DNA of 64,000 nucleotides from the NCBI GenBank assembly GCA_945859605.1, contig OX243811.1:59186044-59250043 (forward strand). The letters run 5' to 3'. The position numbers and the translations under genes are program-made. The notes beneath the pieces are model-generated. The model ran no database searches, had not been told where the DNA came from, and saw nothing but the letters and a program-made list of their open reading frames with translations. Positions 6,362-64,000 of this stretch are shown here, piece after piece (position 1 is the first letter of the stretch; every line of letters begins with the position of its first letter). The stretch is from Lumbricus rubellus (lineage: Eukaryota; Annelida; Clitellata; Crassiclitellata; Lumbricidae).

Positions 6362-6402
<41 letters not shown>

Positions 6403-6425
6403 TAATAATAATAATAAGCCTAGTA

Positions 6426-6489
<64 letters not shown>

Positions 6490-6499
6490 TAATAATAAC

Positions 6500-6556
<57 letters not shown>

Positions 6557-9936: not shown

Positions 9937-9983
<47 letters not shown>

Positions 9984-11334: not shown

Positions 11335-11430
<96 letters not shown>

Positions 11431-13369
11431 CAGATTGGCCTCCAAGGGAGCCAACTCTCATTCAGTGCCCAAAATTATGACCTATTTATCACCAACACAA
11501 TTAGGCGTGGGTGTTCCAGGCGGAGCGGAGGCTGCAGTTCATGCTTCACGTCGTTTCCTGGCTGAGTTGGATTCAAACGCCGTCTTCGTGAAGCTGGACA
11601 TATCAAACGCGTTCAATAGTTTGCATCGGGACCGCATGCTGGAATCTGTTAACACTCTTCTACCAGAGATCGCACCTTACTGTCATATGACTTACGCTGA
11701 AGCTTCCAAACTCAAATTTGGTAAATACACAATAGCATCGATGACCGGCCCACAGCAGGGTGATCCGCTGGGCCCTCTGTTGTTTTGTCTCCCACTCCAA
11801 CCTGCCCTCCTCAAATTGACTTCCCCTCTAGCCTTCGGTTATTTGGACGACATATCCTTGGGCGGAGTGCGGACCATTAGCCACGGTGGAAGCAGACATA
11901 ACTTCTCTGGAGACAGAATGCGCGGAATTGGGTCTTGTATTCAACAGAGCAAAATGTGAAGTGACAGCCATTGATCTGCAGCTAGTCACACACATAACTT
12001 TTAGACAGTTCACGCGCGTGAACCGAGACTTCATTTGTCTTTTAGGTGCACCACTCTCCACCGGGTCGGCTCTTCAAATCGCACTCGGCGCCAGGGTGGA
12101 GGAACTAGCCAGAGCTATGATTAGACTAGGCATAATAGCCCGTCAAGACGCGCTGCTTATTCTCAAATGCTCGCTGGGTTCCCCAAAGTTACTATACAAT
12201 CTGCGTGGTGCGCCGTTTGTGGATCATCCTGCTTTGCTTGAGTACGACCAATATCTTCGAAAGGGCCTTGAAGACATTTTGAACATCAACTTGTCAAATT
12301 CACAATGGCTTCAGTCCACACTTCCCTTCAGCATGGGAGGACTAGGGATACGTAGGGTGTCATCGCTGGCGCTTCCTGCCTTTTTGGCATCTGCCGCGGG
12401 CACCCTCGTCCTCCAGTCTGACATCCTCGGAGAGCTCGATTATCAACCGGACCCGCAGGTGGAGAAGCTGATGGCGATGTGGCAGGAGGAAGTTGGGAAT
12501 CACTGAGGACTTCTCAACTCACATGCAATCTCAATGAGACAAACCGCTACTGCATAAAATATTCTCGGAGATATCCAACCCACTCACAGATAAATTTGAC
12601 CAGGAAGGCAATCACGACTAAACACGCCGGAGACTGGCTGATCACGTCTTGCGGTTTCAGATTAAGTGACGAGGCTATGAGGGTTGCAGTTGGTTTGCGC
12701 TTGGGAGCTAACATTTGCGAACCCCACGCATGCACTTGTGGCTCACTTGTCACTGCAAGAGGCGAGCATGGTTTATCTTGCTCGTTGGGTTTTGGTCGTA
12801 TGGCTCGCCATGGTACACTAAACGACTTGATCTACCGTGCTCTGATCAAAGCTGGATATCCGTCAGCCAAGGAACCTCAGGGCCTGGTAAGATCGGACGG
12901 CAAGAGACCGGATGGAATCACCCTCATCCCATGGAAAGCCGGCAGAGGTTTGGTGTGGGACGCCACAGTGGTGGACACACTTGCACCGTCTTACCTTGCC
13001 GCTACAGCCACTCGCGCCGGAGCAGCGGCTAGCCTGGCGGGGGACAGAAAGAACCAAAAATACAGCGCGCTCCTTGATGCTCATGTTTTCATCCCGGTTG
13101 CTTTGGAAACCCTAGGTCCGATCAACGACAAGGGCCTAGACTTTATCTCAGATTTGGGTCGTCGTCTTACAGAAGCTACCGGAGAACCCCGGGAATCAAG
13201 CTTTTTGTTCCAACGCATTTCCATAACTATAGGCTACAACGATTTAACGCTGTGGCTTTTTCAGGTTCCTTTATTAAGCCCCTGATGGACATGATTGAGG
13301 GCGGTTGCCCTCATTGAAATTGATGTGTTATGTTTGTATTGTTTGTTTAAGTGAATAAATGTGTGTGAT

Positions 13370-13434
<65 letters not shown>

Positions 13435-31579: not shown

Positions 31580-31652
31580 ATGTACAGAGGTATTGAATGC
31601 GGCGGAATGATTCTGCTTTGTCAGCTAATTCTCGCAGCTTCTCAGATAACCG
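31580..31652 (+). CDS. Gene B exon 1: signal peptide
   Basis: ATG followed by MYRGIECGGM and the hydrophobic core ILLCQLILAAS, ending QIT in phase 1 before GTAAGT. It matches gene C exon 58064-58136 in length and phase. Confidence 0.85.
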
Positions 31653-43600: not shown

Positions 43601-46600
43601 AATTTGGAGCGGACAATTTGGAGCGGACAATTCGGAGCAGGCAATGCATAACAGTCAAAATTAATGATGGAACTCAGATTTTCATACCCATCTCGATCAC
43701 CCAAATAGACCTACAGGAGACTTTACTTTTTCCTGCCAGGTGTCTTAAGACTTTTCTTTTTCCAGCAGTTCTTCGCACTGGGACTGGAAGTGCCTCTGAT
43801 TAGGTTGTACCGGTACTGTGAGAGGCTCTTAATAAGTCCAAAAATAGAATAGAATAGGTTGACCGGATGGGCCATTGGACATTAGAGTCAATACTAAAAT
43901 TAGTCAGCTTAGCACCCCACCGTCTCTCAGGCTGCGTGTAGGCTACGTCTACTTGTTCCTATGTCTTTTGCCCGTTTGTTTTCGATGTTTGGCAGTAGTC
44001 ATGGGGCAGCTAGGGCTCCTGCTTTAAGCTAGATTTAAACCTTAAGTTGCAGTAAAAATAATTATATTAATAGTTTAGCTCTAATCAGAAACCTGACTAA
44101 CAGGCATAAAGGAATAGGACTATGGTTGTAAGAAAACTGCAATGATTGAAATGAGCTGCCTAAAGATTGGTAAATTAGTGCATTTAACTAATAATTCCAG
44201 TTGCTTAGTTTAAGCTTTGGAATGCAGGGTCTTGAATATCGTAGGACGTTTGTTTGGTGCCGTAGGCTATAAGTATTTTATTGCCACACTGTTTTTGATC
44301 GACGCAGGCATGTGATGTTTCTGATGTTTCAATTCGACACAATTGTTTTGTATACACTCCGAATTGTTCGGGTCCGAATTGTCCGGGCCCGAATTGTCCG
44401 TCTCCAAATTGTCCGGTCCGAATTGTCCGTCTCCGAATTGTCCGCTCCAAATTGTCCGCTCCAAATTGTCCGCTCCGAATTGTCCGGGTCCGAATTGTCC
44501 GGGTCCGAATTGTCCGCTCCCAATTGTCCGTCTCCGAATTGTCCGCTCCAAATTGTCCGTCTCCGAATTGTCCGGTCTGAATTGTCCGCTCCCAATTGTC
44601 CCGCTCCGAATTGTCCGGACACCGTGTCGCGAGTGTGTCTCGTAAAAATGGTGTGTCGTTGGCGTGTCGCAAAAAATTGGTTTGTCGCGAAATTCCAAGA
44701 GCAAAAATCCATTAATTGTTAGGCCAAACAATTAGCGTAGAGTCATAAAATGACGCAGAATCGTAGATTAAGATTGGTGGAATATAGAATTTTGGAAACT
44801 AAAAGGCATTCAGTGTCAACATTTTCATTCAATTGTAACTTTAACAAAGGCCTTTTTTAATTCCATAGATAGGCTATTAATTTTGCATGATGACGATTGC
44901 ATGGTGTGTCGCCAATAATTATATAATTAATTGTTCCGCAAGTTTAGGTGTGTCGCTCACCGAAAAAAGGTTAAGAACCTTTGTTCTAGAGCATCCAAAG
45001 TCCCCCTCAATATCCAAACCGCTGATATAGCTTTATAATGGAGGCAATGGGCGTAAGCATGGGCGTCGTCAGCATACCCCTACTGCAGGCCCGAAACCGC
45101 ATGAGCTGGTTTAGATAGGCTAATCTAAAGTATGGGACCAAGGACTGAGCACTAATGAGGATCTAGTAGAGACAATAACAACACAGTGTCTACACCAATC
45201 GCTATTTAAAATTCGATGCAGAATGCCTCTTTGTAAGCTAACTGACCCTCCGTTCAAAATGCACAGAAGCAGAACTTTGATAAACTGCAATCCACCCAAG
45301 ATTCAAGTGATTATCGGCACCATGTAGGCCTAGCGTATTTTCTACGAATCCAAATATTTTGTTACTCGACGACCTTCACGTCCTGGAATCAAGTAGTTTG
45401 TTCAGTAGCGATGACCTCATGCTATTTGGATATCAAAGCGTTTTGAAGCTTACCGAGCGTCTGAACCTGTAGCCTACCCAGTAGGCCTAGGTCTAGAAAA
45501 TTGACATAGCTACAGAACTCGCAAGAAGCGATCTATTTTATAATAGGCCCCTATGGCCTACGTACCGAAGATAAATATTGGATAAGAGACGATATTATTT
45601 TCTCAGGAGCAATTAAATTAAATGAAAACAGGAATTAAACTTCATTCACTCAAAGATAAAGCAATAGTAAAATTGACCTGCATTTCAGTTTGTCCATTGG
45701 GCTTCTATGGACAAGATTGCGTCAAACGATGCCATTGCAATGGAGATCCGTGTCGATTCAACGGTACATGTCTAAATTCAAATCTCAACTTCTGTAAAAG
45801 GGGATGGACAGGATCTGCCTGCAATATTAGAGGTAGGCCTACTGTTACTTGATTCTGAAAGACATAAAACATTAAAAAATGAAAGACACATGAACTTTAT
45901 TTTGCACAGAATGTGCCTAGCCTACTCTGCGTGATTATACCATCTGGAAATATGTACATTGTACAGACAGAGTAGTCTGGCTTAATAGCCCTATGTTTGT
46001 CGTTGTCGTTATAGATTGTGGAATGAACAATGGTGATTGTGCATCTGACGAAACGTGCGAAAACGTTGACTTAGGGTCTGCAAATATATCTGTCTGTCGG
46101 TGTAAAGAGGGATCATACAGATACAATAACATTACATGCAGACCAAGTAAGATTTATTATTGGCTAGAATATATTATAAACGAACCAAGAGAATTAATAG
46201 GGCCTAGGTCAAATAGTCGAGCAGCAATAAGGCATAATAGCGAGCTTTCAAGTTAACTTTATCACTTTTCTCAGCCGTTTCATTAAGATTATTGAAAATT
46301 TGTTGTTAGGAGTCATACGAAAATGTTTTATGAAATATAAATATTTCAATAAGCTTAGGTTTTTTCTAAAGGAAATCTCATGTTAAGAAATGCAACTAAT
46401 TCTGATTTCGGTGCTCACAGTCGACGTTGCCTATTATAGGGCACACAATATTACACACGTGACTCGTTGCTTCGTCATCCAAAAAGTAGTTTAAAGGGCA
46501 TAAATTATAATGTCTTAAGCAGTTCAGCAACTATTATGACTGGGATTTCTCACAAGGCATTTAATACAGTCTACTATACAGAATGTTTCGCCTCGTAGAG

Positions 46601-49600
46601 TCGTCGATTTGCTTCTGTTACCATAATTTATTGCAATATTCATTTCTTAAAGTCAAAGATCGTAGCCCAAAATTCAGCTTTGACCATCACAATAGAGCTT
46701 ACAGTTCTAATTTAGCAAGCATACAATGTAAAACTAATGTGCGCTTCTTATTAGATTGCTATTGAACCTCTGTGTTTTCCAGTGAACGACGTCCTATGGT
46801 GTGTAATCGATCCATATTGCAACATGAATGAGGCTTGTAACGTTATTGACTTACAGTACACGAATGTTTCACGCTGTCAATGCAAACAAGGCTTCCATAG
46901 AATGAATGCATTGGGATTTTGTACAGGTACACTATAAATAACGAACATGATAGTTTCATTATTAGGCCGCCTACATATACCCAATTATAAATTGAAAAGT
47001 TGTAAGTTCATATATCTGCCAGGCTAGATATTTTCTCCGATCTATCTGCCTGCTTTGCGCCATTTAAAAGTCTAAATGACTACACATCATTTGTTGTAGG
47101 CTACTGTATTCATGGGAAGGTCAGACGGGAAGCATATGGGCATTCCGTACCCGATTTCGTAGCATTGCAAGCCATAACGCTTTTTCATTGGCCGGTTCCA
47201 GATTATGAATATTCATAACCAATGACGTGTTTAGTGCGTTCTCGTGCGCTGTTGTTGCTGCTGTTGTTGGCATACGAGGGAAAATGGCCGATTGCGGTGC
47301 GCATAAAGTTATAGCCTAAGGAGTTTCCACTCGATAGTGAAGTAATCGAAAGTGCGAAGGTAGACTTCTAATCAGAGCAAAAATAAACGCGAAGGCTACG
47401 CGTTGTTACGTGCGTGCCAGCGAATATGTCATCCACCAACTCATCGCTTCAATAATACGCTGTGGTCAACAGCTATAATATGTGATGCATCAGGCGTCTG
47501 CTTCGTTGAATCAACCGCCTCCTGCGATGCCAAAAATAAAAAATGCGCTACAGAAGTCATTGCATTAGATTTTACTAGACTTCACTTTCCTAAATTCAAA
47601 CCAGTTGAAATTCGTGCTCTACACATTTAACAATTGTAACTTTGAAAGCACTAGGTTTATTCAGTTTTCGTGAACTGTCTCATTTTCCATGTCTACTGTT
47701 CGACAACCAGTAATATTTCGAGCTTAAGTACAGTAGTTCATGTCAATCTCAGTTCTAGGCCTAGCGAAAATCATCCTAAATTTCAAACCTATGTGATTGT
47801 GTAGTCTATGCGCAATTGCATATAGACCCAAATGCGTTTTATTAAGATGTGTGACGGTTATCTTCATTCAAAATTAATTGTTCAAATTTGATTATTTTGA
47901 GTCATGAATCAGAACCCTTTGCATCCACGTTCACAGACCTTCTAATTCCACGTTCTGACTTCCTGACAGGAATAGATTTGTAAAAGCACTTCTGTACAGT
48001 TAACAACTAGCAAAAAGGTCATTGTCCTCCGATTGGAAATAATTTACCATGGAGGATGGGAAAGGAAAGAAGGGGTTGTGGCGTTATGCAGTTCTAAAAA
48101 TTCTTTAAAACAGCCCTGTAAGAGTGAACGTTAGCCCACTGCTGAATTATGAATAGCCTAAGTAGGCCTACCAATAAAAGCATTAATATGAATGCAAGTA
48201 GCCTTATGGCTTTACATAATAGAAAGGTATGTGATAAAGACATCAGTGTTAGCCTACTCTGTTATCATTGCTCATCAATAAATAATATTATCGTTGTTCA
48301 ACAATACGGATGACAGGCCGCAACCTATAATAGTCTAATGACAACTTGTCACGATTCAGACATAGCGAAGTCCCAACAGCTTGACCTACCTAGATGGATC
48401 CGATTTGACCAGGGTCTATGACAACAGAGGACGTTACCCTGGACAGAAATTTTGGCCTACCTGCCAATTGCTTACATTTTAAATACAATTATAATATACT
48501 AAAATCGGGTGTTTAAATTTTTGGGTGAGTCAGTTTAATAATAATTTTCGTCTATTCAACAATCCGGTTGAAAGACCGCAATCGGTTACAATGTACAATA
48601 ATATTATGCAGTTGAAACAGTTTGCAGGAACTCAGATTACAGAATACATAAATCTTAACTATTATACCAGCCGAACAGACAGCCTGAAATACACGGAGCT
48701 AATAGCAGCCTACAAAGCATATCCGCCAAATAACAAATCACGCAACGCAGCTTTATACCATTATATGCAAAACTGTTTGGTGTAGGCTGTCTATTTATTA
48801 AAGCACTTTATAAATCTTAGCAGGTAACTGCCGTATAGCCTACTAGGCCTAATGGACGCAAAGGCTGTGATTTATTAAACATAATAGCCTAAGATTATTG
48901 ATATTGCCAAGGCAAGCCGCAAAGTCTGTAGGGCCTAAACAAAACGTGCTTAATTAATGATGTCACTGGTTATGAATATTCATAATATGGGATCGGCCAA
49001 TGAGAAGGCGCTTAAGACTGACAATGCTACGAAATCGGGTACGGAATGCCTATATGCGGCCGGGACCTGCCATCAGTCACTGAGGCCCTGAAACCTAATA
49101 TTGATAACATTTCATACCGAATGCTTGTTTCGTCTTGGGACTTGATCTTGATTTACACAAATGTGTACAATTATTACAGTTTCTAAACTTTTTATTTATG
49201 TCATTAACTTGCAACATGCAAAAGTGCAATATCATGATATAAACTAAGACACTAAGTAGATGGCCTAGACTATTTACTAGTTCACACAGAGATTCATCAA
49301 GCCTTGATAAAAAAGTTTCTTACAAATTTGCGCTTAGTGCAAAGCATCAACTGTATGGTGCCATATTAGAATAGGAACTCTGCATATACAGGGTGCGCCA
49401 AAAAAAGTAATCCCCTACGGTTATTAGCCCATATCTTGGCCAAACATACGAATTTTTAAATGAAACTTTACAGTCGTAAAGGCAATTCATAATTACGTAC
49501 AATGGTTCAAATTTCAACAAAATATTTCAAACATAACAAAAGTTACATCACTTTCCGTGAAGCCACCCACCGTTTTTTGACGATTCAAAAACGCGACGCA

Positions 49601-52600
49601 AGAAAAAGTGACAAAAAACCAATTTAGTTATTCTGGCCAATATCTTGGCCGGAAGTATAAATTTCGAAATGAAATTTTCCAGGCTTAGAGACAAATCATA
49701 TCTACATATGGTGGCCGGATTTCACCAAAATATTTCAATCACAACAAAAGTTATACCACTTTTAGTGAGGCCACCCCCCCCCCCGTTTTTTGACGATTCA
49801 AAGACGTAACGCAACAAAAAGTAGGAAAAACACGATTTTATTAAGTCTCATCTTAAATAATTGTTATCAAATAGCCTTCATATTGCCAGATGATCATTAC
49901 TATTTAAAAAAGAAACAGAGCACCATCGTAGCTGCACCTCACTGAGAAGTCACTTAGCAAGATGACAATCAAATCGGTAAATAAAGAATCTGTCAGATTA
50001 ACCAACAGGCCCATCAAGAACTTTGCAAAGACTCAAAAGAAGTGTTGTCACTGGTGATGAGCACATTGAACACAAGTTGTGAAGCACTACTAAGTTCATT
50101 TGACACCAGTTATTTGAGATGAGAATTGATAAAATCATATTTTTATTACTTTTTGTTGCGTTTCGTTTTGAATCGTCAAAAATGGTGGGTGGCCTCATTA
50201 AAAGTGGTATAATTTTTGTTGTGTTTGAAATATTTTGTTGAAATTTGGCCATCATGTGTAAACATGAATTGTCTTTAAGCCTGTAAAATTTCATTTCTAA
50301 ATTCTTACTTCTGGCCAAGATATTGGCAAAACACCTAGTTTTTGGTGCGTTTCGTTTTTGAATCGTCAAAAAACGGTGGGTGGCCTCATTAAAAGTCATA
50401 TAACTTTTGTTCTGTTTGAAATATTTTGATGAAATTTGACCATTGTACGTAAATATGAATTGCCTTTACGACTGTAAAGTTTCATGTAAAAATTCGTATG
50501 TTTGGCCAAGATATGGGCTAACAACCGTAGGGGATTACTTTTTTTGGCGCACCCTGTATAATGGATGACTGATTGACTGTGCAGCTCTGCACTTGACTTA
50601 AAATCCAGCAATTGCAAATCTGAGCAACCTCATTATTTGTTATCGTGCATTTCCTATAGTATGCTGCCTGTGTAGCAATCCAGTCAGGACTAGGCCTATA
50701 AGTTTATTTGAGACTCGTTTCATGATATAGATTTGTGTTCAAATTTACTGCAGATGTTGACGAGTGTAAATCTGGTAATTCAGCATGTAACGCTTCATCA
50801 GAAAACTGCTTTAACAACATTGGCAGTTACAGGTGTGAATGCAGGGATGGATTTATCATTAATATATCCGGAAAGTGCGAAGGTATGCCCTATATAGATC
50901 TGCAATAACCGATTAGGCCCTATCAGATTGATGTATCTGTATTTATTACGAATGACTCGATGTTTAATCTTTCAAATCAAAAGCATTCGTTTTGAAACAG
51001 CGACGCTTTTATGATCTAATTCTAATAATCAGAAATAGGCCTACAGGTTAACAATAATGAGTCAATATGTAATGTTATCTGCGAATTGCATCGCTGAAGT
51101 AGTAATAATATCGTAATCGTATTCTTTATTATGTCAAACCGACAAACGCAGTAGATTAGCCTACAGCCAGTAGGGTAATGAACGTAATAAATTATGATGG
51201 AAAGTTATTAGGAATTATAGGAGTCGAATTTATCTATTTTATAGCCTATAGCCTATGCGGCAGCCATACAAGACGTTCATCACGTAGTACTAGTTACTCA
51301 TTTTTCCATCGCGATATAGCGAATGATAGACTCAGTGGACCTTTGGGAGGGTAGCCCGCGAGAATCGTTCCCGCTTCCTCTGTTCCTCACGTCAGTGATG
51401 TTGCTTACCGCTACCTTATGGACCCCAAATGCGATAAAGTAGTTGACTTGAAAAAATAAATAGTGTTACATTTACAACTTCGATACTTTAGAAGAAAAAA
51501 AAAATTACCTGTATTTTGCAAATACTACAGATATAGACGAGTGTAGAAATGAGTCGCTTCTTTGCGACCATGAAACAGAACTTTGCGAAAACTCATTTGG
51601 AAGCTACACTTGTCATTGCAAGCCCGGGTATGAAAATTCGACAATTGGAAACTGCTTAGGTAATGTGCTAACGTTTATGTGCTCTAAATATGTACGATAG
51701 TTAGGCCTATTTTGTTTGTGGCATGCATGACCAACTCACCAGTCATAAAAACTAGCTAGGTCTAACCTGTTATGTCCTTGGGCTTATTAATATTAAAATA
51801 ATTAGATCTATACATGTAGCAGAATTGGCCCTACTAAACAAACCAGTTGTAATGCTGTGACTCAGCAAGCAATAGTAATTAATTAGTTAGGCTCATAGGG
51901 CCTATTCTAATTCTGGTTAATTAAGTAATTCTTCTACATATCCAAGTTCTATTGCCAACTACGATTTCAATGCAGATTAAGAGGCATAATTCATTCAATT
52001 TATTGGAACTCATTGCATTTGAATGAAGTAGGGCTGTAGGCTACATTTCAATTGCCAAGAAATGTGCGGACCAGAATGAATTTTGAATTCAATACGTAAT
52101 CACATGGGTTATAATCAATGCTACATGTACTGCATAGACCGTCTGTAACGAGACATAGGCTATGTGAGAATATTGTAGCTCCACTGGTCGCATGGTTTCG
52201 AATTTTAACATATTAAAGTTGACTAAAGCGTAAAAACATTATCTGGCGTCAGAATATATTAACTCAAGGTAAGAGAAAGTGATCTATAATAGTGCATATG
52301 CCGCTTGGACTGAGTTCGCACGTTTCTCATACAAACCGACAGACCATATCCGGGTCCAAAGTCACGCCAAGGTCACACAGAGAAGTGGAAGTAGCCTTCC
52401 GGTAGTAAATTGGAGTTGTGAGTAAGTATACCAGGCGTCTAGAAAAACTCTAGATCATGTCAATTGGAGTGTGAGCAGATTATCTCCAACCGGTGACGGA
52501 CTGACGGTTAGAGAATATAGGCCTATTTCTGCGGAAAGCATCTCAAATGCCGCAGCATTTTCTCAGCTAAGACGATCGGTCGGAACCAATAGTCATCAAC

Positions 52601-55396
52601 CTAATTAATCATTGTAATCATGTCGATCCCATGGTGACGTACGAGGCAGTGAAGGGCAAATCTTGCAATGCAGCGGTGTATGTCAATGGGCCATATAAAT
52701 TAGTAGGTTATTAAGCAACATAACATGGCCATAAGGACATTTTATGTTGCTTAATTTGCACATCCAGCTCTGCTAACCTTATTTGAAACTCTTTTTATGA
52801 TAATAGTTATTTTATTGCAGATGTGAACGAATGTCAATCGGATAATTCGACGTGTAATCGATTATTAGAAAACTGTGTTAACACCAATGGTAGTTACAGA
52901 TGCGATTGCAAAGATGGCTTTGTAAATATATCTGGAACGTGCAAAGGTAAGTAAAATGCGATCATCGCTACAAAGATTGAGTGAAAAGTTTGATCGAAAA
53001 GTTGCTCTGCTTGAAGTTACTCTGCACATGTAGATCTCTAATTCCGACACATCTTGTTGTCATAGTACATGTGCACTGCGTATTGATGTCATTTTATATT
53101 CTGACGTTATCAGCTAATTCGTATTAATTAGCTGAGTGTTAATTGTAATTTTAATTGATTGAGTCTTTAAAGAGTCGCCAAGTCGAGTTGTAAATTTCAT
53201 CTAGGCCTATTGATAATTCTAATTAATTACAGCTTTACCTTAAAATAATAAGCTTACTCATCAGTGATGGCAGTGACAATTACTAGCGTTAGAGATATAA
53301 GTCTTATTGCACATGTAACTTAGAGCCACCCATAGCAGTTATTTCACGACGATAATTATTATTTTAGCCTGTAGGTTACTTTGTTTTATTGCAGATATAG
53401 ATGAATGTCAGTTGAAGAGTCCATCATCACCGTGTAATGAACATTCTGAGCGTTGTATTAATAGCATTGGCAGCTATACATGTAAATGCAAGGAAGACTT
53501 CATTTACATTTTTGACAAGTGCGTAGGTGGGTATGTCCATAAGAGAAGAATGCCGTAGGCCTACATACAACGAAATGCTCTTTGCGTAAATGGACCTGAT
53601 GATTATAACGATCCACATGTAGGCCCCTATGTTTTACATCGATTTCATTGTTATTTGCTTCATAGACCTACTCTGCGCACAAAAATTAGTGACGCATCGC
53701 TGTGTATAATGTCGTTTGTCTTATATATTGCGACCCCAGCTTTTGTCTTTTCATTTCACTTACTGAACACGCGAAACTACGACAAGTCATTTCCTAAAAG
53801 CAATGGTAAGCTATATTGCTGTGCAAGTCCAAAATTTGGGTGTTATACCACCGATCAATACGTTCAATAGGCTATTTGTTTGCTACAAAATAAGAAATAA
53901 ATAAAAATAAGAGCCACAGATGGTTGGTCACGTAGCAAATATTGAAGCCACTTGTAAGACTCATTTGCGTGGTGTTATTTCAATTATGACTAACTGAAGC
54001 TAATGATGATGTCTTTTGAGTAGCCTATGTAACAATACCATTGCATATCATAAGGCTGTATCGATAAGGCGACAGGGTGTCTGCCATAGACTGGAATGCA
54101 AAAAATACTATTCTTGACAGTATAGCCTAGGCTACTACTGAAGTAGATAGAACGGGCTAAAAGCTAAAGACTCGTTTACCACCGATCAATACGTTTAAAA
54201 ATGTTGTAAAAGAGCTTGTTAATTATACATGTCCAATATTGTCCGTACAAATAGCCTATGCCTTAAGAATAATGCATTGCAGATGATTATGATTGTGTTC
54301 TTAGCTTAATCTATTGAACATTATTTTGTCAACAGAGTTCAATAGCACGGTTACCATCGGAATTTTAGGAACTCTTCTGGCAATCAGTTTGCTGGTCAAC
54401 GCGATCTTTATTGTCTCAAGAAGAAAAAGTGCAAAATCAAGAAAAGAAGGTATATGATTGGATATGCGAGTGTTCAGATGAACTGAATTAAGACGCTATC
54501 AAAAAGCTTTTATTCATTCTTATGAGTCTCCAAAAAGACTCAAATTAACCGAAATGAATGTCGACGTCACTCATCATCATATCCATTCTGTAATTAGGTT
54601 TTTCCTATAGCCTAATTTGTGCACCACCCTTTCTCAATTACTAACAAAAACGTTAGCTAGGCCCTACATGAACGTAGAATCTACATTGTTAACGAGGGGT
54701 TTTCTGAGCTCTAGTAGGCCTAATTAAATTACTAAGCAAAATAGACCTATGCAGATATTCTGTAGTTTTCCATTCAGATCTATTAAACACAATCTCTAAT
54801 ATGAATTCTATCAACAGTTGAATTAGGCCTACTGCTCAATGACTCTCAATACCTGCTTTTGAGGATCAACAATTTAAAGATTGCATATTCCTATCTATAA
54901 AGAATATTTTCAACTGCTTTTGCACTGATAACAAGCAAAAACGTAAAGCATTTGATGTGTGTCTACTAATTTGAATTGGCAATTAGACCTACTGAGGCTA
55001 CTGTTGAATCTTTTACGCTAAATAAAACGTAAAAGTTAACCAATTTTATTAGTAGGCCCTATACAATTTGTATTTTATCATATTTTATATAATTTTATGA
55101 CACTTTATAAATTTTTTCAACACGTTTAGCAGTTTAAAAACTAACATAAATTATGATGTGCAGTAGCTTTTGTATTATGTTTTGTAGAACTCGAACAAAA
55201 TATCGCACAGAACAATTTTGAGTCGAGTTCTTTAAAGATTTTGAATCAACATGAGACGGATTACATTGAGGTTCCAAACCGTGCCAGCATGTACGAACAG
55301 ATCATTACCGGACAACGACAGATAGTCCTCGCACCAACTTCTGAATATGCAGAGATTAGACAGATTGGCTATGTGAATGTTGCACCTCCTAACTAA
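31580..55396 (+). CDS. Gene B: complete WSC/EGF transmembrane receptor with ITIM/ITSM-like tail
   Basis: Fifteen exons: 31580-31652, 34398-34570, 38506-38641, 40281-40415, 41073-41251, 41888-42041, 45689-45832, 46015-46146, 46783-46926, 50754-50882, 51531-51659, 52821-52946, 53395-53526, 54336-54449, 55188-55396. They total 2109 nt: 702 residues plus TAA, with all phases consistent. Order of modules: signal peptide; WSC 1; EGF (FGSNC type); WSC 2; EGF (FYGQDC type); EGF-like (DCGMNNGDC); EGF-like (VNDV); four calcium-binding-type EGFs; transmembrane helix; ~70-residue tail. Family knowledge: WSC domains bind carbohydrate in other proteins and ITIM/ITSM tyrosines recruit SH2 phosphatases or adaptors. 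A role in recognition with inhibitory or tunable signalling is inference. One intron appears to use a GC donor (34571). No kinase domain follows the tail. Confidence 0.85.
33141..33722. mobile_element. Foldback/MITE family I, copy 2
   Basis: Ends CGTTGAATTGAGCG and GCTGAATTCAACG. About 110-bp inverse arms of AATTCGCCGCC and CAGCGCCTAT units. Homologous to 24151-24825. It sits in gene B intron 1. No clear target duplication. Confidence 0.8.
34398..34570 (+). CDS. Gene B exon 2: WSC domain 1, first half (GC donor)
   Basis: Acceptor GTTGTAG. Reads GQLHENYIGCFVDIG and ends DITFAALN in phase 0. The donor is GCAAGT instead of GT; the paralog in gene C ends CTGAAC with GTAAGA at the same place. Using the nearby GTAGTC would break the frame to exon 3. 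Confidence 0.82.
34932..37897. mobile_element. ~3-kb foldback with TTAATCCCGCGACA-type tandem-repeat arms (family III)
   Basis: Left arm (34932-35110) has about ten degenerate copies of a 15-18 bp unit around TTAATCCCGCGACAGT. The right arm (37668-37897) has the inverse, GTCGCGGGATTAA. Ends are GGGT...ACCC. The interior holds a piggyBac-like MITE. It lies in gene B intron 2. Target duplication not resolved. Confidence 0.8.
35369..37454. mobile_element. piggyBac-like MITE with hairpin ends, inside the family III foldback
   Basis: Bounded by TTAA at 35365-35368 and 37455-37458. Ends CCCATTAGTGCC and GGCACTAATGGG. Each end is followed by an inverse copy (GGCACGAACGGG near 35770, CCCATTCGTGCC near 37290), so both termini are palindromic. 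The ~1.5-kb core is unrecognised and non-coding. Confidence 0.72.
38070..38332 (+). pseudogene. LINE 3' end remnant with GAC/GAT tail
   Basis: A + frame reads VMDDKGRRGRPNRE, a basic segment typical of the C-terminus of RTE/CR1-type LINE proteins, then decays. It ends in (GAC)n(GAT)n at 38280-38328, a usual LINE 3' tail. Confidence 0.6.
38506..38641 (+). CDS. Gene B exon 3: WSC domain 1, second half
   Basis: After TTTTTAG it reads NGRQCTCRNNSGQQLP and ends DTRFYSLYTG before GTGAGC. It has fewer CGG-type residues (VCGEK) than WSC 2. Confidence 0.83.
38685..39389. mobile_element. hAT-type non-autonomous element
   Basis: Ends CAGCGTTTTCCAAGGGTTCC and TTTGGAAAACGTGCTG, with GGTTCCGTGG/GGTTCCGCG words near both ends. 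The duplication is uncertain. In gene B intron 3. Confidence 0.65.
39482..39837 (+). repeat. tRNA-derived SINE with ATT tail
   Basis: Head GTCCGTAGCTCAGTTGAGAG (A box) and CCGGGTTCAAGCCTCG (B box), ~280-bp body, tail GATTATTATTAATTATT. In gene B intron 3. Confidence 0.82.
40281..40415 (+). CDS. Gene B exon 4: EGF module, laminin/MEGF-like
   Basis: Phase 1-1, 45 codons: VCSVGSFGSNCDQSC, CDRETGICPDGC, EWTGASCNI. The eight-cysteine spacing is of the type seen in MEGF/SREC/Tie ectodomains. Confidence 0.85.
   Translation, partial: YVVLVPLVPTVTSHVTAIDVYHAIEKQGSVRMDATTSGLEQVVI
40727..40990. mobile_element. Small foldback with GGACGTTTCATCCC-type tandem arms (family IV)
   Basis: The left arm (to 40870) has about ten 13-15 bp units such as GGACGATTCATCC and GGACGGTTCATCC. 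The right arm (40915-40985) has the inverse. The centre is a hairpin ATTAATAGAGCAT/ATGCTCTATTAAT. Gene B intron 4. Confidence 0.8.
41073..41251 (+). CDS. Gene B exon 5: WSC domain 2, first half
   Basis: Acceptor CTGCTACAG. Reads QKQYIGCYGDGP and ends NNYTYAGMQ in phase 0 before GTAATA. It contains the NPGGKTGSGK insertion shared with gene C. Confidence 0.86.
41888..42041 (+). CDS. Gene B exon 6: WSC domain 2, second half
   Basis: Reads YGYDCNCGEKYDRYGN and ends CGGSYANSVYHG before GTGAGC. A longer loop (ERSCPANRNQ) than in gene C. Confidence 0.86.
43336..44983. mobile_element. hAT-type element inserted in the LINE
   Basis: Left end CAGAATTTCTCAACC, right end GGTTAAGAACCTTTG. TTCTAGAG duplicated exactly at 43328-43335 and 44984-44991. 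Subterminal GTGTGTCGC words are present at both sides. It hosts the tandem-repeat foldback. Confidence 0.9.
43363..44623. mobile_element. 1261-bp foldback with CGGACAATTCGGAG tandem-repeat arms and 9-bp duplication (family V)
   Basis: The left arm (43363-43640) is a run of 13-15 bp CGGACAATTCGGAG units. The right arm (44350-44623) is the inverse, CTCCGAATTGTCCG. GTGTCGCGA is duplicated exactly at 43354-43362 and 44624-44632. The core 43650-44340 is unrecognised. Repeat-rich readings across the arms are not proteins. Confidence 0.9.
45689..45832 (+). CDS. Gene B exon 7: EGF module
   Basis: Phase 1-1: VCPLGFYGQDCVKRC, CRFNGTCLNSN, RGWTGSACNIRG, before GTAGGC. No counterpart is visible in gene A. 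Confidence 0.86.
46015..46146 (+). CDS. Gene B exon 8: EGF-like module
   Basis: Phase 1-1: DCGMNNGDCASDETC, SVCRCKEGSYRY, ITCRP, before GTAAGA. Six cysteines. The gene C homologue is truncated and gene A lacks it. Confidence 0.83.
46783..46926 (+). CDS. Gene B exon 9: EGF-like module (VNDV type)
   Basis: Phase 1-1: VNDVLWCVIDPYC, CQCKQGFHRMNALGFCTG, before GTACAC. Direct counterpart of 5107-5250 in gene A. Confidence 0.86.
47118..49070. mobile_element. ~1.95-kb inverted-repeat element in gene B intron 9
   Basis: The ends share GGCATTCCGTACCCGATTTC, TAGCATTG and TTATGAATATTCATAA over ~110 bp in inverse orientation (47120-47235 and 48955-49066). Short open frames inside (47403-47630, 48525-48785) resemble nothing I know. 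Boundaries and duplication are unclear. Confidence 0.72.
49389..50556. mobile_element. mariner-like foldback with two ~200-bp modules per arm
   Basis: Ends CAGGGTGCGCCAAAAAAAGT and its inverse, with TA on both sides. Each arm has two tandem copies of a module containing TTCAACAAAATATTTCAAAC and CCACCCACCGTTTTTTGACG, giving a 2+2 palindrome. No transposase. It lies in the intron before 50754, where gene A has no insertion. Confidence 0.85.
50754..50882 (+). CDS. Gene B exon 10: calcium-binding-type EGF ('a')
   Basis: [18 protein letters not shown] then [16 protein letters not shown]. One codon longer than the gene A copy (FIINIS). Upstream intron is homologous to that before 22015. Confidence 0.87.
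51318..51430 (-). repeat. tRNA-derived SINE-like copy before EGF exon 51531
   Basis: GACCTTTGGGAGGGTAG and CTCACGTCAGTGATGTTGC match the copies before exons 20814 and 22720. Confidence 0.5.
51531..51659 (+). CDS. Gene B exon 11: calcium-binding-type EGF ('b')
   Basis: DIDECRNESLLCDHETEL then [16 protein letters not shown], before GTAATG. Confidence 0.87.
52821..52946 (+). CDS. Gene B exon 12: calcium-binding-type EGF
   Basis: DVNECQSDNSTCNRLLEN then CVNTNGSYRCDCKDGF, before GTAAGT. It sits where gene A has its second a-b pair. Confidence 0.86.
53395..53526 (+). CDS. Gene B exon 13: calcium-binding-type EGF ('c')
   Basis: DIDECQLKSPSSPC then [16 protein letters not shown]. The usual glycine of DGF is replaced (EDF), followed by a hydrophobic IYIF. 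Before GTGGGT. Confidence 0.84.
54336..54449 (+). CDS. Gene B exon 14: transmembrane helix
   Basis: EFNST, then a hydrophobic run ([20 protein letters not shown]), then RRKSAKSRKE as the stop-transfer signal. Confidence 0.88.
55188..55396 (+). CDS. Gene B exon 15: cytoplasmic tail with four tyrosine motifs
   Basis: TDYIEV fits the ITSM consensus TxYxx[VI]. SMYEQI, SEYAEI and IGYVNV fit ITIM [SIVL]xYxx[ILV]. Y-I-E-V and Y-E-Q-I are six residues apart, so an ITAM-like reading (with V for L/I) is an alternative. YVNV is also a Grb2-type site. Ends VAPPN then TAA. Confidence 0.85.
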
Positions 55397-58063: not shown

Positions 58064-58136
58064 ATGCGTACACTGATTAACTACGCAGGCGTAATCGTTT
58101 CTTGTTGGCTACTTCTCGCAGTTACCCGGATCACTG
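58064..58136 (+). CDS. Gene C exon 1: signal peptide
   Basis: MRTLINYAG then hydrophobic VIVSCWLLLAV, ending TRIT in phase 1 before GTACGT. Exactly 73 nt, as in gene B. Confidence 0.85.
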
Positions 58137-61100
58137 GTACGTGGAATTATTCAAGTAGACGTGACCTATTATATCTCGACATGCGTTAAACACGAATATG
58201 CGAACAGGTTTTCCTATGTTTATGAATAATAGCAAGTTAAAGTTTAAATGGGTGGCAGATGTGGTAGGTCTATAGAGTTTTTCATTTTATGCTGACGATG
58301 TAGAGAAGATTGGTTTGACATTATTGGCTTTTAAATTCCATTTCCATGTCTTTGAAAGAAAAAGGATCTTCAGAACGGTGCAACATGCAGCGACGCATTG
58401 CCAAGAGTTTAGCAGTAGGCGAAAGATTATAGTTTGGTACTTTGGGATGCGCCACAACAGAGCTACACATCAACGCAAATTAAATGGGGACCCTAGACCC
58501 AATACCATGCACGTTGCTGACCACGAACTTGCCAACAACAGCTTTGCCATAAATGCTGCGTCTCCTGAAGGTTAAGTCCGCTCATGTAAAGTTTGTCACA
58601 GGACTCGATATCGACTTGTGAGTAGGATAATTTCGGCTGATATAGATCTAATTATTATTTTTGCTTTAATGCAGACCATGGTGCAGACTATGCTCAGTAC
58701 GCCTAATTGCTAGAATGTTCCATCTTTTTGTTGGCGTATATAATATTATGGTTAATCGATGTTTCTTCTGCGAATAAAAGATTGTTGCTTAAATTGGAGC
58801 TGGATTACTGAAAAATTGCTATTTAAATTAAAGTTGGAATGTTGGATCGATGAGAAAATTAATGGTTGATAAAGTATCAACAATCATGGTTGATAAAGTA
58901 TCAGCCTGATTGATGAAAAAGATTCATGCCAAAGTTTAGGAGTCGGATTGATGAACATGATAATCATAATGCTGTAGGCTATTGGGCCATTAATGATTAA
59001 TTTAGATTGCCATAAAACGATAGATAATTCAATATCCATTCTACGACTAAGCCTAATTAAGATGCAGGCCATCTGCTGAACACTGAGTAACTACAGAGCC
59101 ACGTGAAATCACCTGTAGGCTTCGCATAATATGTGACATTTAATATATATATATATAATTTATATATAAATTATATATAAAATATATAATATTTACATAT
59201 AATGTAAATTGCAATGCGTTACTCGTGTTAAAATTCTTATTATTGCAGGTGAGCTGAATGAAAAGTACGTCGGTTGCTTTAGAGACAAAGAAAAACAGCA
59301 GATAATGGAACCTTCTCTGAAGGATGCAGTTAACCTAACTATTGAAATATGTATACAGAAATGTTACAATCAAACTCATTCGAAGATGACATTTGCAGCC
59401 CTGAACGTAAGAATTACTTAGCATTTTCCAGATCTCTGATTTAACTCGGCTTCATTAGCAAAACTGTTTCATCACAATGCGAACATGTAGCCTTAAACGT
59501 TTTGAATCCTATTGTGGCTAATTGGCTATGTCGAACAGAGCTCTGTTTTTACTGACGCTAACAAATTAAAGCTCATGACTTCAACTTCGAGTCGGTAATT
59601 ATGCAGACAATCGTGACTGCATGAATAGATGCACAACATTGCACATGGGCGTTTGTATAAAATTATAGAGGTTATGCACTTATAGTACGCAGTGATGCAA
59701 TTATTTTAACGGTTACAACCGTTACACGGATAAACATTTATCATAATAGGCCTAATACTTACAAAGAGGATGCAAACTACATGTAGGCCATTGCAGGGCC
59801 TACATTCCTGCACAAGAGCATTAAGAACTGCCAGTACCACAAAATAATATAAGACAATATAACATTTTTTAAAGTAATTATTTGACAGCATCACAACATT
59901 GACACAGATTTAAACTAAATTACATGCATACCAAAACAAGCTCTATTGAAAGGCTGCAGGACAGTGCAGGTGCATGGGAAGAAAATTTTCTGTTCATGAA
60001 ATCTGCATTTTCTTTCCTAACCCATGAAAAGATCAGTATAATTCGACCCCATTCTAATCCTATGAGTTCTAACTCTCTGCGATTTGATATGGAAATTGTA
60101 GAATGGGCTTGAATGCATCTGCAGAGATGACTTTGGCCAACAGTTGCCTTATCGAAACTGTAGCGTTAAATGTTCAGGAGATGCGGTGCAAAATTGTGGA
60201 GGAAACCACGCTAATAAATTTTATTCGTTCTACACAGGTGAGCTAAATATAATTTGTGCAATAATAGTTTGTCTAACTGTCTAACATGATAGTTCTTAAC
60301 TTAATATTGGCCTAGTTTTCATTCTCGCTGCATCAACATGATGGGATTTCCTCGTCTGTCGCCTATGCTTGCAAATCTAACTTCAAAGCTGATTTCATTC
60401 TAACGATGAGATTGCTCTGAAAAACAGCTTGCGTGAAAATATTAATTGAGTCTGGGGAATGTTTTTAGGAAGTTCGCCAAACCGAAGACGACTTAAGAAC
60501 ATCATGATTATTTTATTTTCCTTGATTAGCATGCAGTAGGCTTCTGGAACCAATTACTTCTGAAGATTGACAAAGTTTGATAGTTCGCGTTGAATTCTTA
60601 AGTAACAACAGCTCGTGGCGGTCGCTAAACCGATAAGTGGCTCATGAACAGAAGGAAGTAACAAGATTTGTCTTAGAATTGCAAATGCAGGTCTTTTTTG
60701 TCTTCAGTATGTTCTGTCGGCTACTTTGGTTCAAACTGTGACCAATTATGTCACTGCAAGAGAGGTTTACCGTGCGACCGAAAAACTGGCATCTGTTCGA
60801 ATGGATGCGAAGAGCATTGGAGTGGAACGAGCTGTAATATAGGTAAGCAGAACATAATATTATAAGCTGCTCTTTGACTGAAATACATACATAAGATCCA
60901 GAAGACTGGTAGGACTGCGAAAATCTACCTATCCACAGACCAACCCAACTCAACTCGTAAACTATATAGGCCTACACAAGTCATAATTAAAATCGGAATC
61001 AGTTGAGGTATGGGGAGGAATATGAAGTCGAGAAAGTGAGAAAGAAGAAGATTTTGTGAGAGAAGCAACGAGAAGATGTGGCGGTAATTATTTTAAGGCT

Positions 61101-63528
61101 CATGTAGGCTATAAAGGGTTATTGAAGTTATAATAATATTATAATTATTCCCTCAAATTGAGAATCATGTAAATTTTCAATAAAATTACAAAACATGTCT
61201 TGCGCGTCATCATTACAAAATATGAATCTAGAATAAAAAAGACTCATTTATTGACTGAAAGTAGGCTATTGGGCGCTTAAAATAGTGGAGGTTTATTTTT
61301 TGCAAGCTACGGTTAACTATAGTTTTGAATTACAAAGGTAACATTCAAAGACGATACATTGGATGCTATGGAGATGGCCCACCAAGGGCCTCCGCTATGG
61401 ATGTAAAAAATCCAGGTGGAAAAACGGGTGCGAAGACATTAACGAACTCAGTTGAATTCTGCATAGAAATCTGCTCCAGCAATGAATATACATATGCAGG
61501 AATGCAAGTGAGTCTACATTGAGTCAATTTTTAATAAAGATATCGATTATCATACACCGGTTCCCGCTAATTTAGGCCCGGCAAACATACACGTAATGAT
61601 GTAAAAGTCAGCTTAAGTTTCAGGATCATGTACAATGTAATTAGTGATTGTTTTCCATGTGCAGCTGTTTGAAGATAATATTAACAGAATAAGTAAGCGG
61701 ATGAAATGTTTAAAGAGCATGCAACGTAAAACTACACGACCTCTCTTTTAAATTATAAGATGAAAATCTAATCTAATAACTCTTCTTTTAACTCTAAGTT
61801 TATATGACGGTAACACTACTGTTTTACTAAAATTTAAGTCAGTTGTTTCTTATGTTATAGTATGCGTACGACTGTCATTGTGGAGAAAAATACAGCCGAT
61901 ATGGAAATGAAACATATTACCGTAACCAGAGTTTTAGCTGCAATTATCGGTGCTCCTCAAATAGTAAACAAATATGCGGCGGCAATTATGCTCTCAGTGT
62001 TTATTATGGTGAGTGATGAGGTTATTGTGAGTCTATGCCTTTGTCATCTGGTCTGATAAGGAACAGACGACATTTTGAGCCTGCCACACAGCTACATTTA
62101 ACCTAATGCATATTGTTCGCTAGGGCTTATCCGGTGTAGCTGCTTTGTAAGGCGCCCTTGTAACAGCATGGCTGTGTTACTGCGCCATATAAATCGTCGT
62201 AATTATTATTGTTATTATTAAGGCCATTATTTTGACATTCAGATTGAAACAGTAACCATTGTGCCATAATTATCATCATGAGCTAGAAGAAACATGAAGC
62301 AATAGGCCTATAGAATTGCCTTGCGACCATCATGCATCAAATGATATGGTTTGAAGTAGGCCTAAGCTTATTCTTCGTCATCTTCACAACGTAGTTTATT
62401 AATAAATAATATTTGTGTTCATTATATAAATTTTATTCCAACTGACACACCGCAGGATTGAAGCTTTTGTATGAACATTTCGAGATACCAGTATCACATG
62501 AGTTGAATTGAGCTGAAGCGTAAATCTGTCCCATTGATTACTTTACCAAAGCCACCTAGCGTGAAAAGCTCCGTAGACCTTTGGGATGAGGCGGGAATTG
62601 ATTCCGAGTCCACCCGGATATTCTGCTCTTCACGCGCACTGCTACCATTCAGCCATAGGCCTACGCATTCCCGCTGGTTGAAGAACGCATTAATCGCGCA
62701 AATGCATTAAGTAGTTGACTTTAATAAATGTTGCAAGTAGGCCTACTGTTGTCTAAAGATATCTGAAGATCTGACTGTAGGCCTACATTGATCTCTTCAG
62801 TATCTGGTCGATCCAGTCACCAATAATTAATTGTTAGCTGCAGAGACCTTCTGGTTGACCTCAGCTTGCACAAGGCTTCTGCTCAATCTAGAAGTCTTGC
62901 CTATGTTGACCCGTATACTTTATCAATCTAAGATAAACACTATTTGTGATCCTGTATTCGAAAGTTTGTCCCACTGGCTTCTACGGCCGAGACTGCGTTA
63001 AACGGTGCCAGTGTGCCGACGGGGGACCGTGTCGATTCAACGGTACTTGTCTAACTTCAGTAGGCCTACTCGATGCCTGTAAACCTGGATGGACAGGGTC
63101 TGCGTGCAATATCAGAGGTAATTTGTAGACTTGATAGACATTGCCTTAATTGCTTAAATTTAATATCTGTTTGGAACTTAAACCATATAAAGGCACTGGC
63201 TGTAGAAACCGTCATACAGGTGTAACTATAAACATGCATGATAATTATCATTACGTGCTTAATCAAAATTAGACTAAGCATTGCATATTTTTACAGTTGA
63301 AATAAGCGCAAGGATACGACAGCTTGCTCCTCAATCTTATTCTCTAAGTGTTCACTGAATCTACTCATCTTCGTATAGACCTAATGCTATAAGGACGAAA
63401 TATTATTAGTCCTATTTATTCCCACTGGGCAGATTGCAAAGTCAACAATGGCGACTGCAACACAGAAGAGCAATGTGAAACCATCGACTTGGGCTACGTC
63501 AACATGACTGCTTGTCAGTTATCATCAG
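58064..63528 (+). CDS. Gene C: WSC/EGF receptor paralog (3' end outside window)
   Basis: Eight exons: 58064-58136, 59249-59406, 60102-60237, 60708-60842, 61338-61507, 61861-62008, 62965-63117, 63433-63528, all with AG/GT borders and phases matching gene B. They encode signal peptide, WSC 1, EGF, WSC 2, EGF and part of the next EGF-like module. The last exon is shorter than in gene B and lacks the final two cysteines, so the module is truncated or the exon is decaying. Later EGF, membrane and tail exons, if present, lie beyond 64000. The same class of surface receptor as gene B is expected. Confidence 0.78.
58345..58572 (+). other. Unassigned open stretch in gene C intron 1
   Basis: A frame reading RIFRTVQHAATHCQEFSS to INAASPEG stays open to 58572, with AAAG before 58350 and GTTAAG at its end. 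Gene B has no matching exon and the sequence matches no family I know, so it is not included in the gene model. Confidence 0.2.
59249..59406 (+). CDS. Gene C exon 2: WSC domain 1, first half
   Basis: Reads GELNEKYVGCFRDKEKQQ and ends KMTFAALN in phase 0 with a normal GTAAGA donor. Confidence 0.86.
60102..60237 (+). CDS. Gene C exon 3: WSC domain 1, second half
   Basis: Acceptor AATTGTAG. Reads NGLECICRDDFGQQLP and ends CGGNHANKFYSFYTG before GTGAGC. Confidence 0.86.
60708..60842 (+). CDS. Gene C exon 4: EGF module
   Basis: Phase 1-1: VCSVGYFGSNCDQLC, CDRKTGICSNGC, HWSGTSCNIG. Same 45-codon length as gene B. Confidence 0.86.
   Translation, partial: YVLSATLVQTVTNYVTAREVYRATEKLASVRMDAKSIGVERAVI
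61338..61507 (+). CDS. Gene C exon 5: WSC domain 2, first half
   Basis: Weak acceptor TTACAAAG. Reads QRRYIGCYGDGP and ends EYTYAGMQ before GTGAGT. Three codons shorter than gene B. Confidence 0.83.
61861..62008 (+). CDS. Gene C exon 6: WSC domain 2, second half
   Basis: Acceptor TGTTATAG. Reads YAYDCHCGEKYSRYGN and ends CGGNYALSVYYG before GTGAGT. Confidence 0.85.
62125..62220 (+). repeat. SINE 3' tail
   Basis: AAGGCGCCCTTGTAACAGCA, GGCTGTGTTACTGCGCCATA and an ATTATTATT end. Same family as 27600-27680. Confidence 0.6.
62570..62690 (-). repeat. tRNA-derived SINE-like copy in gene C
   Basis: The reverse complement reads TGGCTGAATGGTAGCAGTG (A box) and CTCGGAATCAATTCCCGCC (B box). Related to the copies in genes A and B but at a non-homologous intron, so an independent insertion. 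Confidence 0.55.
62965..63117 (+). CDS. Gene C exon 7: EGF module with two insertions
   Basis: VCPTGFYGRDCVKRC, CRFNGTCLTSVGLLDACK, GWTGSACNIRG. Relative to gene B it has an extra ADGG-type loop and a longer loop encoded by GTAGGCCTACTC, that is, the genome-wide TAGGCCTA motif inside coding DNA. Confidence 0.84.
63433..63528 (+). CDS. Gene C exon 8: truncated EGF-like module
   Basis: DCKVNNGDCNTEEQC to MTACQLSSG before GTTAGT. 32 codons against 44 in gene B, lacking the last two cysteines. Unspliced reading hits TAG at once. Confidence 0.6.
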
Positions 63529-63746
63529 GTTAGTAAACTAACAGATCAAGAAGTTATACATAAAGATGTCACGTTTCCATCTAATAGGCCTACTCTTGTA
63601 TTCTTTGCACTGACAGTGACTGACTTCCTTTCTTTCTTTATCTATTTCTATCTGTCTTCCTGTTTGAGCATCAATTATTTATAATTCGAGCATAAATACA
63701 GCATGGCTCCTTCTTTCTGAAAGATCTAAGTCTAATACCTAGACTA

Positions 63747-64000
63747 CAGGGTGGGCCAAAAAAAAGACCCCCCCTAAGATTTTTGCCAATATCTTGACCA
63801 AAAGTAAAAATTTCGAAATGAAATTTTACAGTCTTGTAGACAATTCATATTTACACAAGATGGCCAAATTTCATTAAACTATTTCAAACAGAACAAGAGT
63901 TACACCACTTTTAGTGAAGCCACCCACCGTTTTTTGGCGATTCAAAAACCTGACGCAACAAAAAGTAACAAAAAGTCAATTAAATTATTCTGGCCAATAT
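63747..64000. mobile_element. Left end of a second mariner-like foldback (runs off window)
   Basis: CAGGGTGGGCCAAAAAAAAG after TA at 63745-63746, then a module with CCACCCACCGTTTTTTGGCG and the start of the next (TTCTGGCCAATAT). Related to 49389-50556. Confidence 0.75.

Follow-up and report, generated by a model that had tools for sequence, protein, structure and literature searches.

An earthworm gene array for WSC/EGF receptors with a conserved set of tail tyrosines

How might a cell-surface protein built from WSC and EGF modules signal, if its short cytoplasmic tail carries four tyrosine sites? The question is raised by a gene of the earthworm Lumbricus rubellus, here called gene B, that lies in a stretch of 64,000 nucleotides (GenBank assembly GCA_945859605.1, contig OX243811.1, positions 59,186,044 to 59,250,043, forward strand). 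We call this whole stretch the window and count from its first letter; positions prefixed with C1 are those of the assembled chromosome 1. A sequence-only reading of the window had proposed a tandemly duplicated, immune-type or self-recognition receptor with one immunoreceptor tyrosine-based switch motif (ITSM) and three inhibitory ones (ITIMs). Gene B probably belongs to a new annelid family of type I single-pass receptors, whose tail would most likely serve as a phosphotyrosine docking strip.

Gene B has 15 exons on the + strand (31580-55396) and encodes 702 amino acids in 702 codons, with no internal stop. Its upstream exons were assembled by tracing homologous exons from the transmembrane (TM) exon back to the signal-peptide exon. 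The latter (31580-31652; MYRGIECGGMILLCQLILAASQIT and a phase 1 junction) is the open reading frame (ORF) that best matches the signal exon of the next gene, C, and has a phase-1 GT donor. Exons 2 and 3 hold the two halves of the first WSC domain, WSC1 (34398-34570, from Pfam and paralog exons; 38506-38641, from paralog exons), and exons 5 and 6 those of WSC2 (41073-41251 and 41888-42041, both from Pfam and paralog exons). EGF-like exons of types d1 (exon 4, 40281-40415), d2 (exon 7, 45689-45832), x (exon 8, 46015-46146) and y (exon 9, 46783-46926) were assigned by cysteine pattern; they are followed by four EGF_CA exons recognized by Pfam (exons 10 to 13: 50754-50882, 51531-51659, 52821-52946 and 53395-53526). 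The TM segment and a basic juxtamembrane stretch occupy exon 14 (54336-54449, ag/AGTTCA...AAGAAG/gt), backed by the genome-wide TM search and by hydropathy; exon 15 (55188-55396), matched by paralog tails, encodes the cytoplasmic tail with its four tyrosine sites and closes with the stop TAA. The two are joined in phase 1, in the same frame as the 13 exons upstream. All inner splice boundaries are GT-AG, except for a GC-AG donor after 34570 (AAT/gcaagt) in WSC1, where gene C has GT.

The single-pass WSC/EGF architecture was thus read correctly from the sequence. Pfam places WSC (PF01822) in two stretches, above its curated cut-off (63.1 bits against 27.8; E 3e-17), and EGF_CA in four (E 3.1e-27), as in a type I membrane protein; the other four cysteine-rich exons count as EGF-like on cysteine pattern and paralog comparison, without a Pfam match above the cut-off. 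Hydropathy gives two hydrophobic stretches only, the signal peptide and a TM segment at about residues 597-624. Of the 70 cysteines in residues 1-595, two lie in the signal peptide; the ectodomain has 17 N-glycosylation sequons, and the cytoplasmic tail has no cysteine. The Pfam scan of gene B returned no EMI domain and no leucine-rich repeat (LRR), and a motif scan of the protein found no Nimrod-type CCxG[YWF] motif nor, indeed, any CC pair.

The 69-residue tail, ELEQNIAQNNFESSSLKILNQHETDYIEVPNRASMYEQIITGQRQIVLAPTSEYAEIRQIGYVNVAPPN, contains exactly the four sites that had been read from the sequence: tyrosines 659, 669, 687 and 695 lie in TDYIEV (Tyr1), SMYEQI (Tyr2), SEYAEI (Tyr3) and IGYVNV (Tyr4). 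The ITIM/ITSM consensus is (V/L/I/S/T)xYxx(I/L/V) (PMC11460946), and 4/4 sites match it. This is above chance: none of 20,000 shuffles of the gene B tail gave four consensus sites. With the tail exon alone shuffled, the corresponding values for the other tails of the family are 0.024 (A), 0.27 (C), 0.22 (E), 0.07 (F), 0.08 (G), 1.0 (H), 0.003 (I) and 1.0 (K), to be compared with a permutation threshold of 0.25 as printed in PMC11460946. Since more than 1600 ITIM-bearing membrane proteins are estimated in the human genome (a figure repeated in PMC11460946), conservation of the sites weighs more than their fit to the consensus.

Paralogs for such a comparison are available next to gene B. Searching the whole genome with the TM exon gave ten matches at E < 1, all at C1:59.211-59.561 Mb; one other match was listed, on chromosome 2 (C2), at E 6.4. 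The ten genes lie on the same strand within about 350 kb, so the tandem duplication proposed earlier holds and extends further than the window shows. The genome searched comprises 787,420,884 bases in 368 contigs, about 110 kb short of the 787,530,981 bp and 380 scaffolds given for wcLumRube1.1 (PMC11015115). Searches with the tails of B, G, K and E found tails exclusively within C1:59.21-59.56 Mb, and a recognizable tail lies downstream of each of the ten TM places. As the TM query takes in only five tail residues and a tail follows in 10/10 places, the tails were not chosen by their tyrosines alone.

To read the array we joined the window to the 200 kb downstream. Across these 264 kb, 151 matches at exon level were obtained, every one on the + strand; by their order they make up genes A, B, C, X, E, F, G, H and the start of I. 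EGF_CA exons range from 1 to 22 among the eight genes read to the tail (A 5, B 4, C 1, X 1, E 1, F 5, G 3, H 22). In gene H (C1:59389866-59406861) the 22 exons partly alternate between DIDEC and DKDEC types, an internal expansion. At the DNA level genes A and B resemble each other across the tail exon, and the resemblance stops near its borders (27172-27384 versus 55178-55381), and insertions and deletions between the two genes are in frame. A kinase domain fused to the tail, a contingency raised by the sequence-only reading, is not seen: the tail exon of gene B ends in its stop, and a six-frame motif scan of the 264 kb, which is not a profile search, gave three DFG-like matches and one HRD-like match, each on its own; the two kinase signatures never shared a frame.

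Nine tails could be read (A, B, C, E, F, G, H, I and K); the frameshifted tail of X was left out of the shuffles and of the column analysis, and that of K was cut to its first module for the latter. The tyrosine columns have a mean pairwise identity of 0.80, compared with 0.37 for the full set of 68 columns (column resampling over the nine tails puts P at about 0.003, not a strict probability because paralogs are related). By the same resampling, the cores around Tyr2 and Tyr3 reach 0.59 against 0.33 (P about 0.006), and the Tyr2 and Tyr3 columns alone give P about 0.025. A chance cluster of motifs is rejected on the shuffles together with this conservation.

The four sites are not kept equally. 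Tyr1 occurs in 7/9 tails in variable surroundings (YIEV, YENR, YDEA, YEGR, YDEP, YDEI and YDDT). Tyr2 has the form YE.[IV] in 7/9 and is a strict ITIM in two (B and I); Tyr3 is SxYA.[LI], a strict ITIM, in 7/9, and its YA is present in all eight aligned tails that reach it, K being without Tyr3. Tyr4 (IGYVNV in gene B) is a YxN site in five of the nine. The spacing is 18 residues between Tyr2 and Tyr3 in all six members with both, despite upstream insertions and deletions, and 26-27 between Tyr2 and Tyr4 in 5/5; member I keeps all four tyrosines. Given these motif counts and fixed spacings, the conserved unit is YE.[IV] - 18 - SxYA.[LI] - 8/9 - YxN. The ITSM TDYIEV is special to gene B (1/9 tails), so that "one ITSM and three ITIMs" describes gene B accurately, with all four consensus sites present, as a make-up private to that gene. 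Hence, in place of the four-site inhibitory label, we prefer the narrower one of a docking strip with Tyr2, Tyr3 and Tyr4 conserved.

The tail of K (C1:59561961-59562218) contains a 44-codon tyrosine module twice in tandem, the copies agreeing at 83% over 42 residues; duplication inside the exon thus alters how many tyrosine sites there are. Gene G has a short ORF between its TM and tail exons (C1:59362102-59362179), whose end, ...YLESGNKTDQNLIYEHLEK*, resembles tail starts (E 0.35); it is possibly an alternative or vestigial tail exon. The pattern of an immunoreceptor tyrosine-based activation motif (ITAM), YxxI/L x6-12 YxxI/L, is not found in the gene B tail, which has YIEV-x6-YEQI with V at +3. 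We reject the ITAM as a conserved logic of the family, as the Tyr1-Tyr2 pair is unconserved among paralogs.

Substitution rates were compared between genes as the ratio of nonsynonymous to synonymous changes (dN/dS). For the groups of WSC and EGF-like exons, EGF_CA standing outside these groups, dN/dS is 0.20-0.50 over eight gene pairs; for the TM exon it is 0.25-0.96. The tail gives 0.46 (A-B), 0.98 (X-E), 0.89 (F-H), 0.62 (F-G), 0.66 (B-C) and 0.77 (C-E); X enters through its first tail piece only (24 codons), and G-H, with identity under the 0.35 filter, and B-I, as the 264 kb do not reach the I tail, yield no value. With EGF_CA included, 67 single-exon comparisons across five gene pairs yield three with dN above dS: an EGF_CA exon in X-E and two WSC half-exons in G-H, each 34-35 codons long and part of the ectodomain. 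Exon averages give no sign of general diversifying selection; it may still act on short stretches. The immune or self-recognition role proposed earlier finds no support in these values and is weakened by them.

Protein searches, which require shared five-residue words and comparable length, so that absence is no proof, returned no orthologs with the full-length protein, the TM and tail region or a four-member profile (B, C, E and G). Full-length gene B against 5.8 billion proteins gave 129 matches; the 120 listed are mostly EGF_CA proteins, none marked with WSC. For the TM and tail region there was no match at E <= 10 among 166 candidates. Among the 120 listed of 156 profile matches none joins WSC to EGF_CA: they include EGF-rich and WSCD-type proteins, one WSC-only hypothetical protein and Mytilus receptor phosphatases. 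A sequence search of PDB with residues 1-375 of gene B gave no match. We found no published account of an annelid array of tyrosine-tail WSC receptors in the literature searched, which lay outside subscription journals.

Such a tail has been described on a WSC receptor, contrary to the earlier statement that none was known. BbLcLRR of the amphioxus Branchiostoma belcheri consists of LRR, WSC and TM regions and three ITIM or ITIM-like tyrosines; these are phosphorylated by Lck; the protein associates with SHIP1 and to a lesser degree with SHP1/2, and in Jurkat cells it dampens the activation of T cells (PMC8211107). Like gene B it is single-pass, with WSC in the ectodomain and ITIM-like tail tyrosines. 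It differs in its LRR-based ectodomain with one WSC, gene B having no LRR, and EGF does not occur in the text of the paper; its sites DDYATV, HDYSEV and HDYDDP are also unlike those of gene B, and it was cloned as a single gene of a deuterostome, whereas gene B sits in a ten-gene array of an annelid. New here are the WSC/EGF array, its occurrence in an annelid and the ITIM-YxN layout common to its members; the union of WSC and an ITIM tail in one receptor has a precedent.

Other receptor systems resemble gene B in part. The ectodomains of PD-1 and BTLA are of the immunoglobulin (Ig) type. These receptors share with gene B, known from sequence alone, a short intracellular tail, and Tyr3 and Tyr1 of gene B fit an ITIM and an ITSM; the ITIM-ITSM spacing in PD-1 and BTLA is 25 (PMC8631942), unlike the 18 residues from Tyr2 to Tyr3 in the earthworm family. 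The Alr genes of Hydractinia likewise form a cluster in an invertebrate and encode cell-surface recognition proteins, among which ITIM-like tails occur. Their 41-gene complex has a described role in allorecognition and encodes V-set/I-set Ig ectodomains (PMC11999971), two points on which it differs from the earthworm array. The sulfotransferase domain (PF00685) of WSCD1, or sialate O-sulfotransferase, takes the place of the EGF repeats and tyrosine tail of gene B; WSC itself is common to gene B, WSCD1 and other WSC proteins. Draper, MEGF10 and Nimrod are EGF-rich type I receptors with tyrosine motifs and are not known to contain WSC. Their hallmarks, EMI, NIM and ITAM, were not found in gene B by Pfam and motif scans.

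A signalling path can be proposed for the conserved strip. Src-type kinases phosphorylate the tyrosines of ITIMs, to which SHP/SHIP bind; Grb2-type SH2 domains recognize YxN, and those of Src type YE.I. Binding of a ligand by the WSC/EGF ectodomain would cluster the receptor, and a Src-family kinase would phosphorylate the tail. SH2 proteins might then dock at Tyr2 (YE.[IV]) and Tyr3 (SxYA.[LI], an ITIM), held 18 residues apart; Tyr4 (YxN) would take a Grb2-type SH2 domain, and Tyr1 would act as a variable acidic site. SH2 domains are present in the earthworm genome, with 116 exon-level matches out of 150 candidates scored. For the sign of the signal we lean towards a mixed one with an ITIM core, over an inhibitory one via SHP/SHIP; an inhibitory or immune function of the gene B family is a hypothesis. 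Our leading guess for the ligand is a glycan or matrix component, because WSC is called a "putative carbohydrate binding" domain in BbLcLRR (PMC8211107).

Several observations weigh against the docking strip. The tail of X is frameshifted, and F and H are without Tyr2; F, G and H stop before Tyr4, A is without Tyr1 and K without Tyr3 and Tyr4, and Tyr2 does not have the ITIM residue at -2 in A, C, E, G and K. The Tyr2-Tyr3 spacing differs from the 25 of PD-1 and BTLA, which the 26-27 of Tyr2-Tyr4 comes near. Furthermore, tail dN/dS exceeds that of both ectodomain groups in 6/6 pairs (24-66 codons each; in A-B by 0.46 versus 0.45), which makes the tail as a whole the less constrained part of the protein.

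The last point favours a protein for adhesion, matrix contact or mechanosensing with a weakly constrained tail, whose tyrosines are partly decaying remnants or serve another use, e.g. endocytic sorting. Purifying selection is indeed stronger on the WSC and EGF-like exons than on the tail, the X tail is frameshifted, the F and H tails are eroded, and WSC-type sensors exist in yeast. We nevertheless place this explanation on the unlikely side: within the tail the tyrosine columns stand out, the Tyr2-Tyr3 spacing is fixed at 18 residues, and the tyrosine module is duplicated in K. An activating or phagocytic receptor like Draper or MEGF10, with an ITAM-like Tyr1-Tyr2 pair and a Src-type YEQI site, would suit the EGF-rich ectodomain and the ITAM-like spacing of YIEV-x6-YEQI in gene B. 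It appears quite unlikely, as the residue at Tyr1 +3 is V in B and R, A, R, P, I and T in C, E, F, G, I and K, respectively; the gap between Tyr1 and Tyr2 is just four residues in member I, so that the pair is unconserved; and gene B lacks CCxG[YWF], with no EMI among its Pfam matches.

A third alternative is a dedicated inhibitory immune receptor, in which a run of ITIM/ITSM sites would recruit SHP/SHIP phosphatases. The YxN and Y[DE]E sites speak against it, because they match SH2 domains of the activating or adaptor kind. In its favour are the four consensus sites of gene B, a number that none of the shuffles reached, the tails of A, E, F, G and I, which also fall under the 0.25 permutation threshold with the tail exon alone shuffled (PMC11460946), and the precedent of BbLcLRR (PMC8211107). 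The ITSM is found in gene B only, however, and just two members, B and I, have a strict ITIM at Tyr2; the threshold is missed by C (0.27), H (1.0) and K (1.0), and diversifying selection is not seen on exon averages. Altogether we hold it to be unlikely, and prefer the docking strip described above. A wider scheme, improbable in our judgement, is a multigene receptor system that this one protostome has built for itself, in which glycan-sensing WSC/EGF ectodomains share an ITIM and YxN tail, the members with lost tyrosines (F, H and X) act as decoys or paired partners of the signalling ones, and coelomocytes use the array to recognize microbes or self.

The neighbours of gene B are laid out similarly, on the same strand. 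Gene A, whose 5' part would precede the window, extends over 1692-5249 with WSC exons (1692-1847 and 3917-4048) and an EGF-like exon of type y (5106-5249); its five EGF_CA exons (starts 5726, 20813, 22014, 22719 and 23534) span 5726-23662 and are followed by a TM exon (24973-25089) and a tail exon (27182-27387). This tail keeps MYEQV (Tyr2), SEYAEL (Tyr3) and IGYVNV (Tyr4), with Tyr1 replaced by cysteine. Gene C begins with a signal-peptide exon (58064-58136), and its WSC1, EGF-like d1, WSC2, EGF-like d2 and EGF-like x exons lie at 59249-63530; a TM exon at C1:59256343 and a tail at C1:59258400 (5' border putative), beyond the window, were assigned to it by exon order. Member I has its TM exon at C1:59470728 and its tail at C1:59471458, and the order of exons suggests a link to the gene starting at C1:59431065. 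WSC itself is more widespread, with at least 84 matches genome-wide (150 of 232 candidates scored), of which 50 lie at C1:58.2-59.86 Mb, all on the + strand; the part of this cluster outside the ten-gene stretch may carry other tails. Further clusters of WSC matches occur at C4:52.52-52.69 Mb, C1:6.75-7.10 Mb and C9:13.24-13.30 Mb.

Repeats were also observed in the window. The intron of gene A between EGF_CA exons 1 and 2 contains two direct repeats of 899 bp (14829-15727 and 18700-19598), 100% identical, which flank a 797-codon ORF (15756-18146) and resemble, together with it, a young long terminal repeat retrotransposon; each copy contains 69-bp tandem units. A second element is present in inverted copies at 49385-50560 and 63745-64000, about 76-87% identical, and partly also at 5527-5659. 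Rfam gave no match on the window at the gathering threshold.

The proposal to look for relatives in echinoderm proteomes does not suit the source, which is an earthworm. The COX1 gene in this assembly prefers the invertebrate mitochondrial code (code 5), at 489.6 bits, over the echinoderm one (code 9), at 471.1 bits. By eye, the mitochondrial order reads nad2, cox1, tRNA-Asn, cox2, an order that is an annelid trait; ARAGORN, run with the bacterial code, gave no tRNA there.

If the tail recruits SH2 phosphatases, the family would tie ITIM-type control to a WSC/EGF ectodomain in a protostome. Together with amphioxus BbLcLRR, this would suggest that WSC domains have repeatedly been joined to such tails. 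To our knowledge, no receptor has been identified for graft rejection in earthworms, and the array would offer a concrete candidate that can be tested.

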